From positions 1 to 64,000 of the forward strand of contig NZ_JAERQE010000003.1 of NCBI RefSeq assembly GCF_016734765.1: DNA of 64,000 bases, written 5' to 3'. Positions 807 to 63,623 of this stretch are shown here, piece by piece. The notes beneath the pieces were generated by a model. The model was not told the origin of the DNA. It searched no databases and saw nothing but the letters and a program-made list of their open reading frames with translations. A program made the position numbers and the translations under genes. This DNA is from Microvirga soli. Its GTDB lineage: Bacteria; Pseudomonadota; Alphaproteobacteria; Rhizobiales; Beijerinckiaceae. The stretch's first letter is position 1, and every line of letters begins with the position of its first letter.

Positions 807-834
807 GATACCCCGCGTGAATGCGATTGGATGC
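807..834 (-). promoter_or_regulatory. Candidate ECF promoter of the fasciclin gene
   Basis: On the minus strand GCATCC (834-829) is followed after exactly 17 bases by GTATC (811-807). The same element with the same 17-base gap is found on both strands of the sigma/DUF4394 intergenic region. Transcription would start around 800, leaving a leader of about 70 bases before the start at 732. Confidence 0.65.
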
Positions 835-870
835 GGGGTCGCGTTTTCGTGAAGAGAGAATTTTTTCGGG

Positions 871-1080
871 TCAGGCGGTGAATGCCGTCGGACCCCTCAG
901 GTAAGCTTCCATGCGGTCGAGCTCGACCTCTTCTGCCGTCACGAGGTGCGGTGCATCCTGCTTGATGTCAGCAATGGGCAGCTTATCGATGGCCGTGCTC
1001 TCTTGGAGGGCCTTGTGGAGGTCCTGCAGATGTTTGATCTGCTCATCGTCCGAGCTCTCAGGCGGGTGGCGCGAGGTCAT
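871..1080 (-). CDS. Small acidic hypothetical protein, third gene of the sigma operon
   Basis: 69 aa, hydrophilic, with no signal peptide or membrane segment. It is rich in Asp, Glu, His and Leu and probably mostly helical (HLQDLHKALQES around residues 17-28). AAGGAG sits 8 bases before the ATG, a strong ribosome binding site. It follows the anti-sigma factor gene by 62 bases on the same strand and is probably co-transcribed with it. I do not recognise the family. Its place in a sigma/anti-sigma operon makes a regulatory or accessory role possible, but nothing in the sequence proves it. Confidence 0.6.
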   Translation of the reverse strand: MTSRHPPESSDDEQIKHLQDLHKALQESTAIDKLPIADIKQDAPHLVTAEEVELDRMEAYLRGPTAFTA

Positions 1081-1142
1081 GACATGCTCCTTCGGGGTTA
1101 GCCGAAAGTATTGGCGCGATCCGTGTCACAAATAGGGCGCCG

Positions 1143-1877
1143 TCACAGTGCTGTGGACGCCGTTCCCTTCATCACAACAGGTCCCGTAGGCAGGCCCGTG
1201 GGGGAGCCGGTGAGCGGCTCGACCGAGATCGCGAACAGTTGATTCGAGTGCGGCCGGGGCAGGTTGCTCGGATCGAGCAGGACCGTCCTGGCGGTTTGCA
1301 CCACGCCCACGGAGACCGGCGCTCCGTTCGGCTCCGGGAAGGTCCACACTTGGATGGAGTGGTTGTGAGGGATCTCCATGTCGCCGAGCGGGGTCAGCTC
1401 GAGGCGACCGTCGGCGAAGGTGCGCAGCACGGCGCCGGGCTGGTTGGTCTCGCTCATGAGAACCGCCACAAGGGTCGGCTGGCGGGTGGCTTTGTCTGCG
1501 AAGTATCCCACGCCCAAGGCGAGCAGGAGGGCTGCCAGCGCACCGGCCATGCCGAAGCTGCGCCAGAAACTGAGGCTGTTCCAGAGCCCCTGCAGCAGGG
1601 TCTGCGAGGTGCCCCGCCGCGCGGGTGCCGCAGGCTTCGCGGCTGCCGCCACTGGTTGAGGTTCAAGGCCGGTCTCGATCCGCTGCCACAGGGATTCACC
1701 GGGCGGGAGGTCGACGGCCGTGTTGTCCCATTCCGCGAAGCGGGTGCGCCATTGCTGGACGAGGGTCTGGAAGGATGCATCGGATGTCATGAGACGCTCC
1801 GCCACTCCGCGCTCCTCGCCCTCGAGGAGGCCGAGAACGTGCTCGGCGGCCAGACGATCCTGATCGTCGCGCGTCAT
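1143..1877 (-). CDS. Membrane anti-sigma factor, RskA/ChrR-like
   Basis: 244 aa. The N-terminal cytoplasmic part (about 1-75, MTRDDQDRLAAEHVLG...) resembles the sigma-binding domain of RskA-type anti-sigma factors and lacks the HxxxCxxC zinc motif. One membrane helix follows (about 115-135, AGALAALLLALGVGYF), then a periplasmic RskA domain of about 100 residues with the typical IQVWTFPEPNGAPVSVG stretch. It should hold the adjacent ECF sigma factor inactive at the membrane until an envelope signal triggers its release or proteolysis. The start at 1877 overlaps the sigma stop as ATGA, which implies translational coupling; an upstream in-frame ATG at 1919 lies inside the sigma gene and is less likely. 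Confidence 0.9.
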   Translation of the reverse strand: MTRDDQDRLAAEHVLGLLEGEERGVAERLMTSDASFQTLVQQWRTRFAEWDNTAVDLPPGESLWQRIETGLEPQPVAAAAKPAAPARRGTSQTLLQGLWNSLSFWRSFGMAGALAALLLALGVGYFADKATRQPTLVAVLMSETNQPGAVLRTFADGRLELTPLGDMEIPHNHSIQVWTFPEPNGAPVSVGVVQTARTVLLDPSNLPRPHSNQLFAISVEPLTGSPTGLPTGPVVMKGTASTAL

Positions 1878-2419
1878 GCCATGCACTCCCGCAGGGCCAG
1901 CAGGGACCGTCGGATCCATGACTTGATCGTGCCGAGCGGCACGCCGAGGCGGCCGGCGAGTTCTCCGTGGCTGAGGCCGTGGATGTAGGCGAGCGTGATG
2001 GCCTGGCGGCGCGCGGGCTCCAGACCCTCCAGGCAGCGCTTGAGGTTTCCCGTATCGGACAGGCGCATCATCACGGTCTCGGCGCTCTCCTCTTCGCTCG
2101 TGAGCCCCATGGGCTCGAAATCCTCGACCAGATCGGTCCGGGTCTCGCCGCGCAGGATGTTGAGCGCCCGGTTGCGCAGGATCGCGTAGAGCCAGGAGCG
2201 GGCATCGCCGCGGGCGGGGTCGAAGCTGTCGGCCTTGCGCCAGACTTGGAGGAAGGTGTCGTGCACGGCTTCCTCAGCCAAAGCCCGCCGCCGCAGGAGC
2301 CGCATGGCGACGCCCAGCATCCGTGGTGCCTCGCTGTCATAGATGGTGCGCAAGGCCGCGCGATCGCCCCGGGCGCATTGGCCGAGGGCGTGGTTCAGGT
2401 CCAAGGCCGGGGAGGCCAT
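1874..2419 (-). CDS. ECF RNA polymerase sigma factor, SigK-like group
   Basis: 181 aa with the two ECF domains: sigma region 2 (about 10-85, including the VHDTFLQVWRKADSFD and ARSWLYAILRNRALN motifs) and region 4 (about 115-175, YIHGLSHGELAGRLGVPLGTIKSW). It is partnered with the overlapping RskA-like anti-sigma gene. The open frame extends upstream to 2569, but the predicted minus-strand promoter at 2468-2496 lies inside that extension, so the ATG at 2419 (GGGGGAG directly before it) is preferred. The promoter in front matches those of the fasciclin and DUF4394 genes, which implies autoregulation and a small local regulon. Confidence 0.93.
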   Translation of the reverse strand: MASPALDLNHALGQCARGDRAALRTIYDSEAPRMLGVAMRLLRRRALAEEAVHDTFLQVWRKADSFDPARGDARSWLYAILRNRALNILRGETRTDLVEDFEPMGLTSEEESAETVMMRLSDTGNLKRCLEGLEPARRQAITLAYIHGLSHGELAGRLGVPLGTIKSWIRRSLLALRECMA

Positions 2420-2467
2420 CTCCCCCAGCGCTGCCTTCACGCGCGAACTCCGTTTCCACTTGGCTAA

Positions 2468-2496
2468 GATACACCCGAACCCTGCCGTTGGATGCA
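2468..2496 (-). promoter_or_regulatory. Candidate autoregulated ECF promoter of the sigma operon
   Basis: Minus strand: TGCATCC (2496-2490), 17 bases, GTATC (2472-2468). It sits about 50 bases upstream of the sigma start at 2419. It is back to back with a plus-strand copy at 2522-2550. Confidence 0.65.
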
Positions 2497-2521
2497 AAAG
2501 GTCCGAAAAATTCACCGCCCC

Positions 2522-2550
2522 TGCATCCATAGAGGATTCCGGCGGGTATG
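2522..2550 (+). promoter_or_regulatory. Candidate ECF promoter of the DUF4394 gene
   Basis: Plus strand: TGCATCC (2522-2528), 17 bases, GTATG (2546-2550). It is identical in -35 half and spacing to the divergent copy at 2468-2496. The start codon at 2600 follows after a leader of about 40 bases. Confidence 0.65.
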
Positions 2551-3421: not shown

Positions 3422-3811
3422 TCAGGCGCAGCTGCGGCCCATGGCGTTGAGGCCCTCGTCCAGAAGGTCGGCGAGGTTCGGGATGCCGATGAGCCAGTCG
3501 GCGGTCGAAGCGGAGCTCGCCTCGTCGCGCTCGCGGGCCAGGCGCACGGCGGCGCCCCATTCCTCAGGCTCCATGTCGCCACGGCCGATATAGACCAGGG
3601 CGATCAGGTCGGCGCGCTCGTCGTCGTTGAGGCCGGCGATCACATCGCGCACTTCCTCCTCGGTCGCGTCGTCCGGGGAAGCCGTCAGCGCGTCGATGCT
3701 GCCGTCGTCGGTGGGGTTCGAGCCCGAAGCCGGGTCGGTCATGCCTTCCTTCACATCGATGGCCCTGGCCCGGAGAATGAGTTCGCAAACCTTATCGAGC
3801 GCGATATCCAT
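3422..3811 (-). CDS. DUF3775 domain protein
   Basis: 129 aa, soluble and very acidic. The pattern LDKVCELILRARAIDVKEG at the N-terminus, ...GSNPTDDGS..., and the C-terminal ADWLIGIPNLADLLDEGL are typical of DUF3775, a family common in Rhizobiales without a known function. The start at 3811 carries a GAGGG element upstream; the much longer open frame reaching 4429 runs opposite the C13 peptidase gene and is not credible. Confidence 0.82.
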   Translation of the reverse strand: MDIALDKVCELILRARAIDVKEGMTDPASGSNPTDDGSIDALTASPDDATEEEVRDVIAGLNDDERADLIALVYIGRGDMEPEEWGAAVRLARERDEASSASTADWLIGIPNLADLLDEGLNAMGRSCA

Positions 3812-3964: not shown

Positions 3965-4735
3965 ATGCGCCGATCGATCGTTGTCTGGCTGGTGGGGCTG
4001 TCCCTCGCCGCCGTTCCCGTTCAGGACTCCTTCGGGCAGGCTGCCCGCCGGGCCGATCCGTTCCAGATGGCGCCGCAGCGTCCGGGACAAACCGACGTTT
4101 ATCTCCTGTCCTTCGGTCTCTGGGGACCGCAGAGCGTGTTCGAGAGCGAAGCGAAAGGCGCAGCCCGCGTTCTTGAAGCACAGCTCGGCGCAAAAGGCCG
4201 CTCCATCGTCCGCTTCAACACCAAGCGCCGGGCTGGCGCGACCCCGCCGACCCTCCTGGCCGCTGCCGAGGCCGTCGGCCGCACGCTCGATCCCGCCGAG
4301 GACATCGTGGTGCTCGTCCTGACCTCCCATGGAGCGCCGGAGGGCATCGGTCTCGTGGCCGGACGCGATACCCGCCTCGTGACGCCCGGTGACGTGAGGG
4401 CCCTGCTCGAGAGAACCAGGGCGCAGCACCGGGTGGTGATCGTCTCAGCCTGCTATTCGGGTGTTTTCGCCAACGCGCTTGCCGACGCGAGAACCCTGGT
4501 GATCACCGCGGCCGCGGCCGACAAACCGTCCTTCGGCTGCCGGGACGGGGCGACCTGGACCTATTTCGGCGATGCCTTCTTCAACAAGGCCCTGAGGGGC
4601 AACGCGCGCCTGGATACGGCGTTTGAGAGGGCCCGCGGCCTTGTCACCCAGCGGGAGAAGCGGGAGGGCTTCGATCCCTCCAATCCGCAGATCGCCGGCG
4701 GCTCTCGGGTTCTGGAGCGCCTGTACGCCCGTTAA
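3965..4735 (+). CDS. Exported C13 (legumain-like) family peptidase
   Basis: 256 aa. A signal peptide (about 1-25, ending DSFGQA) precedes a caspase-fold domain. The catalytic pair is visible: His122 in LTSHGAPEG and Cys163 in VSACYSG, each at the end of a hydrophobic strand as in clan CD peptidases. The bacterial C13 family is poorly characterised; periplasmic or envelope proteolysis is an inference. The ribosome binding site is weak. The 3' end overlaps the convergent DUF1499 gene by the shared palindrome TTAA (4732-4735), so each stop codon lies within the other's. Confidence 0.85.
   Translation: MRRSIVVWLVGLSLAAVPVQDSFGQAARRADPFQMAPQRPGQTDVYLLSFGLWGPQSVFESEAKGAARVLEAQLGAKGRSIVRFNTKRRAGATPPTLLAAAEAVGRTLDPAEDIVVLVLTSHGAPEGIGLVAGRDTRLVTPGDVRALLERTRAQHRVVIVSACYSGVFANALADARTLVITAAAADKPSFGCRDGATWTYFGDAFFNKALRGNARLDTAFERARGLVTQREKREGFDPSNPQIAGGSRVLERLYAR

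Positions 4736-61633: not shown

Positions 61634-63623
<1,990 letters not shown>

Follow-up and report, generated by a model that had tools for sequence, protein, structure and literature searches.

Near the start of a 64,000-nucleotide stretch of the Microvirga soli genome, which opens a contig and which we call the window, the same element, GCATCC-N17-GTAT, lies in front of a fasciclin gene, a sigma/anti-sigma operon and a gene of the uncharacterised DUF4394 family. This raises the question whether the three sites are promoters of one small regulon, whether the adjacent sigma factor is the one that reads them, and whether the gene set is an old triad inherited as a whole.

The element and the genes of the locus

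All three sites (Table 1) are exact matches and the spacer is 17 in each of them, as an earlier note on this DNA had claimed; the ends given there were one base off and have been corrected. A fourth match in the window (7327-7303, minus strand) has a spacer of N15 and overlaps a start codon, so we counted it as chance. In 100 shuffled windows, with spacers of N15-19 allowed, the mean was 0.36 matches and four or more were never reached. Genome-wide (6.25 Mb) the pattern with N16-18 occurs 27 times compared to 4 times for the reversed pattern, and ten matches have a spacer of N17. The other seven N17 matches all lie within open frames of 299-743 codons, which is a weak test, since in this GC-rich genome the window sites at 2469 and 2523 are themselves inside frames that run for 303 codons from stop to stop. 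The three window sites are distinguished by their clustering within 1.8 kb and by their conservation, the latter being the stronger evidence. A chance origin of the motif was rejected on the shuffles and genome counts together with the conservation in relatives described below.

Table 1. Features of the locus, in window positions
Feature	Position	Strand	Remarks
Fasciclin-domain protein, 187 aa	169..732	-	candidate target; PF02469, 126.8 bits vs cut-off 22
Putative fasciclin promoter, GCATCC-N17-GTAT	808..834	-	75 bp from site to start codon
69-aa ORF in the fasciclin/rskA interval	870..1080	-	kept at 40-91% in close Microvirga relatives
RskA-type membrane anti-sigma factor	1143..1877	-	PF10099 (RskA_C), 82.9 bits vs 29.4
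ECF sigma factor, SigK-like	1874..2440	-	Pfam sigma regions 2 and 4, above cut-offs
Conserved ACGGAG block, where ribosomes likely bind for the sigma gene	2448..2453	-	invariant in 12 aligned Microvirga loci
Putative sigma-rskA operon promoter, GCATCC-N17-GTAT	2469..2495	-	exact match
27-bp gap between the facing -35 hexamers	2496..2522		A/T block 2506-2512 near centre; proposed shared UP-like element
Putative DUF4394 promoter, GCATCC-N17-GTAT	2523..2549	+	exact match
DUF4394 protein, 259 aa	2600..3379	+	candidate target; PF14339, 238.6 bits vs cut-off 29.6

The rskA gene lies directly downstream of the sigma gene, its start overlapping the sigma stop by 4 bp as read from the sequence. The conserved ACGGAG precedes position 2440, which suggests that the sigma gene starts at the GTG at 2440 and not at 2419. 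The fasciclin gene is the sole fasciclin match in the genome, and the DUF4394 gene is divergent from the sigma operon. Judged by eye both proteins have a hydrophobic N-terminus, and on N-termini assessed in this way the DUF4394, fasciclin and RTX (see below) proteins are probably exported. For the DUF4394 protein no solved relative was found by sequence at E <= 1. Its predicted model is all-beta (pLDDT 86.6, pTM 0.83) and the 50 matches listed in a fold search include beta-propellers at TM 0.39-0.56 (query) and indicate no specific function; a beta-propeller-like fold is therefore a prediction from the model. The 69-aa ORF gave no match in a Pfam search. Named relatives of the window DUF4394 protein at 85-97% identity belong to Microvirga, and in most close Microvirga relatives genes for DUF3775 (3422-3811, minus strand) and Peptidase_C13 (3965-4735, plus strand) adjoin the locus.

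Conservation of the promoter and its mirror-image arrangement

In the 19 genus genomes that have this sigma factor GCATCC-N17-GTA precedes 18 of 21 sigma copies, and it was found before 14 of 14 copies with an identity of at least 81%. The three copies without it are the sigma gene of G297 and the second copy in each of G712 and G716. An alignment of 12 Microvirga sigma promoters leaves GCATCC, GTGTAT, ACGGAG and one single column invariant while spacer and flanks vary; since only promoters with the site were admitted to it, GCATCC and GTAT are invariant partly by construction, and the unselected count is that of the 21 sigma copies.

We then considered the best 80 named DUF4394 loci of one collection scan, a sample chosen by DUF4394 in which some loci are cut by contig ends. 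In 66 of them the gene is divergent from a sigma-RskA operon, nine have DUF4394 and sigma in tandem and five have no sigma gene in the stretch. Of the 66 divergent loci, 38 have the exact GCATCC-N17-GTA before DUF4394 and 52 have it before the sigma gene; 29 have it at both places. With GCATCC-N16-18-[GC]TA these counts become 55, 61 and 52, the [GC]TA variant having been admitted only after inspection of the nine tandem loci (Methylobacterium and kin), where a site with CTA for GTA lies before DUF4394 in all nine and before the sigma gene in none. Stretches of equal length used as control gave 6 matches in 128, and each of these six is the promoter of a Microvirga fasciclin gene.

With a sigma gene nearby, GCATCC-N17/18-GTA precedes DUF4394 in 12/13 window relatives and 49/75 named loci, two sets that overlap in genomes, as well as in 3/8 class, 5/8 phylum and 0/7 plasmid loci. 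Where no such sigma is nearby the site is rare, the counts being 1/16 (class), 0/13 (phylum), 1/5 (plasmids) and 2/4 (named). Before the sigma gene itself the site was found in 60/75 named, 4/8 class, 5/8 phylum and 0/9 plasmid loci, and before sister sigmas without DUF4394 in 7/29. The exact motif thins in deeper lineages and is absent from the plasmid set. At sister sigma-RskA loci without DUF4394 the motif was seen before ferritin-like genes (L283 and L297, Ferritin_2 in Pfam; L303, by likeness) and before a DUF4331 gene (L290), a pattern which suggests that the promoter was kept and the cargo swapped.

Plasmids provide some further observations. In Microvirga sp. VF16 (L122 / L435) an FAD monooxygenase gene that runs divergently to the sigma gene has GCATCC-N17-GTA 150 bp upstream and is a possible further target. 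Two Streptomyces plasmids (L430 and L431) carry DUF4394, fasciclin and molybdopterin oxidoreductase genes together, one of them also DUF4331, with no annotated sigma gene in the stretch. Their DUF4394 and fasciclin genes are without the motif, as is a third DUF4394 gene, and the grouping could possibly reflect a functional link without this promoter. A further actinobacterial fasciclin gene, on a Tsukamurella plasmid, has no annotated sigma gene nearby.

The earlier note had described two of the sites as placed back to back in one intergenic region, and this geometry is kept across loci. Both sites are present in 68 divergent loci, among which several genomes are counted twice; there the gap between the facing -35 hexamers measures 24-35 bp in 64 cases with a mode of 28-29, and its standard deviation is 5 compared to 30 for the whole intergenic stretch. 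When 55 distinct gaps of 24-35 bp are considered, their centre is 95% A/T versus 35% for the loci overall, and in 54 of them the central 11 bp are richer in A/T than the edges. Seventeen fasciclin promoters are also rich in A/T over a stretch that lies 10-30 bp ahead of GCATCC. The central A/T block looks like one UP-like element that would serve both directions. A more far-reaching reading takes the pair as a coupled device: with a single A/T element and a fixed gap, self-amplification of the sigma factor would oblige synthesis of the DUF4394 protein, an exported propeller protein that would be one element of the sensing loop, for instance by acting on RskA's outer domain, instead of a mere output. 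We regard this as possible but rather doubtful.

DUF4394, fasciclin and RTX genes as probable partners of the sigma factor

The gene set had been interpreted as a sigma/anti-sigma/fasciclin triad conserved between phyla, with DUF4394 as an addition. The first part agrees with a published cassette: according to excerpts from PMC7509140, which cites Veyrier 2008, mpt83-sigK-rskA and the SigK site are conserved in Gram-negatives such as Yersinia. The order of events appears to be reversed here: in 66 of the 80 named loci DUF4394 lies opposite a divergent sigma-RskA operon, and fasciclin occurs mainly in Microvirga. In a sigma tree of 118 rows, whose bootstrap had not settled, a group of 77 rows (support 94/77) contains 67 with DUF4394 nearby, a number inflated because most rows were sampled through DUF4394. 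Within this group fasciclin, scored only when nearby, is confined to a nested Microvirga group (98/92) and two plasmid rows (Shinella, Alloyangia). On account of this distribution the tree suggests that DUF4394 is the old and usual partner of this sigma clade in Alphaproteobacteria, and that fasciclin is a late addition mainly in Microvirga.

A sample independent of DUF4394 was also assessed. Among 289 class genomes 36 have a sigma match at E <= 1e-30; eight of the nine best (E 4.1e-51 or lower) have an adjacent DUF4394 gene, and among the remaining 27 only that of G257 does. When the DUF4394 genes of the class are taken as the starting point, most of the 25 regions retrieved (17) have no such sigma within 6 kb. 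Carriers of DUF4394 include many soil and plant bacteria, among them Bradyrhizobium, Methylobacterium, Xanthobacter, Bosea and Microvirga.

These distributions bear on the idea that one triad was inherited intact from an ancestor common with mycobacteria and that DUF4394 was added to it. The gene types are identical to those of the published mpt83-sigK-rskA cassette (PMC7509140, in the excerpts available), and the single Pantoea fasciclin-sigma-antisigma cassette examined, whose sigma is 40% identical to ours, has GCATCC-N17-GTAT before fasciclin and no site before the sigma gene. Against intact inheritance stands the 77-row group, in which DUF4394 predominates, even if inflated by sampling, and fasciclin is nested; we consider such a history unlikely.

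Within the genus, a close fasciclin gene (at least 64% identity) was found in 19 of 48 genomes and the sigma gene likewise in 19, with 18 genomes in common. In G303 (L421) the fasciclin gene carries ACATCC-N17-GTAT, although this genome gave no sigma match at E <= 1e-50 and its syntenic position is without DUF4394. That the fasciclin promoter was lost in this sigma-less genome was considered and rejected: the exact pattern is absent but a site one mismatch away remains, so G303 was left out as evidence for the sigma factor.

The regulon had been proposed to be purely local, and this had to be given up, as an unlinked gene for an RTX-type calcium-repeat protein bears the same promoter. When 10 Microvirga genomes were searched with a stricter motif there were 57 matches, 28 of them at this locus and 29 elsewhere, compared to 3 for the reversed pattern. 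Of the 29, 22 were examined (20 retrieved regions, the window match at 61655 and the match in G301:C67): three are putative RTX promoters and 19 lie in open frames of at least 227 codons, a weak sign of coding because two window sites are likewise in long frames. RTX homologues at E <= 1e-15 are present in 9 of 48 genus genomes, close ones (at least 69% identity) in seven. The site before the close homologues is exact in six cases and has one mismatch in the seventh, 111-149 bp upstream; before three weaker homologues and one fragment no site was found. All seven genomes with a close RTX gene carry the sigma gene, which is present in 19 of the 48 (p ~7e-4 if genomes were independent, a value that is too optimistic for close kin such as the Microvirga genomes). 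The RTX gene of G319 is part of the sigma locus and adjoins fasciclin there, and that of M. ossetica is divergent from a second sigma-RskA pair.

The sigma/anti-sigma pair and a proposed mechanism

The best PDB match of the sigma factor is M. tuberculosis SigK (4nqw, E 3.8e-25). Cys136 and Cys186, numbered from the GTG at 2440, align with SigK C133 and C183 in the 4nqw alignment, and both cysteines are kept in 101 of 102 aligned rows, some genomes being represented twice. Against the NCBIfam SigK model PRK09646 the protein scores 139.2 bits, below the cut-off of 226, and we therefore call it SigK-like and not SigK; its best NCBIfam model is PRK12537 (208.6 bits of 261). The best structural match, the cysteine pair and the RskA_C anti-sigma factor downstream support the SigK/RskA-like pair that the earlier note had recognised.

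From the observed sites, their conservation, geometry, linkage and co-occurrence we infer the following mechanism, which we hold to be highly probable in its outline. RskA in the membrane would hold the SigK-like ECF sigma factor until an envelope signal frees it. The free sigma factor would read GCATCC-N17(18)-GTA promoters and amplify its own operon, while the mirror-image promoter 27 bp away would produce the DUF4394 protein. The fasciclin protein would be made from a third promoter, and the calcium-repeat protein from a fourth at an unlinked place. The central A/T block would probably be bound by the RNA polymerase alpha subunit for both directions. A shared ECF-type promoter and autoregulation of the sigma factor, both anticipated in the earlier note, are supported.

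As to the signal, envelope oxidation is weakly suggested by the conserved cysteine pair and by Msr-type genes beside a few relatives. MsrA, MsrB, MsrPQ or molybdopterin-oxidoreductase genes lie beside fasciclin or sigma loci of Ruegeria (L276), M. ossetica and VF16 (L434 and L435, both Microvirga plasmids) and Mesorhizobium (L428). A scan for Msr and oxidoreductase genes gave matches in three of the 80 named DUF4394 loci, only of molybdopterin-oxidoreductase and cytochrome-b type, and none among the class (25), sister-sigma (29) and phylum (19) loci. Such genes are rare at the other loci, and we take the methionine-sulfoxide link as a weak hint.

It could also be that a different ECF sigma factor of this bacterium is the main reader of the sites, the adjacent one being no more than a neighbour. 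At E <= 0.001 there are 13 places in the genome that resemble this sigma factor, itself included, and the one-mismatch fasciclin site of G303 occurs without a close sigma. However, the sites go with this sigma factor where the genes are in tandem or have been relocated, the occurrence of close fasciclin and RTX genes follows that of the sigma gene, and S. meliloti ECF promoters look different in the portions of PMC6180224 consulted. We regard another reader as very unlikely. Least likely of all, to a degree that we hardly expect it, is that the motif does not consist of -35 and -10 elements but serves some DNA-binding regulator as its operator: the fasciclin copy (808-834) does overlap an inverted repeat, ACCCCGC/GCGGGGT, whose 7-bp arms match perfectly in 9 of 14 promoters, but with up to one mismatch allowed the repeat is missing at the sigma promoters of the window and 3/4 relatives and at the DUF4394 promoters of the window and 1/2 relatives, and the two separate blocks have a 17/18 spacer and a promoter-like distance to the starts. 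In L420 and L423 both repeat arms changed together (CCCCGCA/TGCGGGG to CCCTGCA/TGCAGGG), which suggests that the repeat at the fasciclin promoter (L110, L420, L423 and others) may be an extra operator in addition to the promoter.

The proposed SigK-like switch can be compared with three known systems. The second-best PDB match of the sigma factor, 2q1z, points to R. sphaeroides RpoE-ChrR (ECF11), which has a zinc-type anti-sigma factor and a promoter different from the GCATCC-N17-GTAT type. A stress-responsive fasciclin is known there as well, RSP_1409, which rises under photooxidative stress (a table of PMC7074977). The same source, as far as its excerpts go, places Rhodobacter capsulatus RpoE/ChrR closer to SigK/RskA than to the R. 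sphaeroides pair, so that it resembles ours as an alphaproteobacterial SigK/RskA-like pair; unlike here, its locus is near photosynthesis genes. With mpt83-sigK-rskA of Mycobacterium and Yersinia our locus shares an ECF sigma factor, RskA, an adjacent fasciclin gene whose promoter is of the same type as that of the sigma operon, the cysteine pair and a very small regulon. The SigK regulon is described as remarkably small in the excerpts of PMC10540498, and Yersinia SigK is assigned to ECF19 and mycobacterial SigK to ECF18 in those of PMC7509140. Unlike that cassette, the locus has DUF4394 as the main divergent target, an RTX-repeat target and the back-to-back promoter pair. As far as the literature searched goes these three features, including the mirror-image pair with its fixed gap, are new: no mention of DUF4394 was found in it, which may still be listed in supplements to ECF classifications, and no paper on Microvirga with sigma factor and fasciclin.

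Our data suggest that one sigma/anti-sigma device seems to exchange its cargo, DUF4394, fasciclin and RTX here and Ferritin_2 and DUF4331 with sister sigmas, while keeping the promoter. The fixed-gap pair would represent a compact natural bidirectional promoter usable in synthetic work, and for the uncharacterised DUF4394 family there are now a candidate regulator, promoter word and compartment that can be tested.
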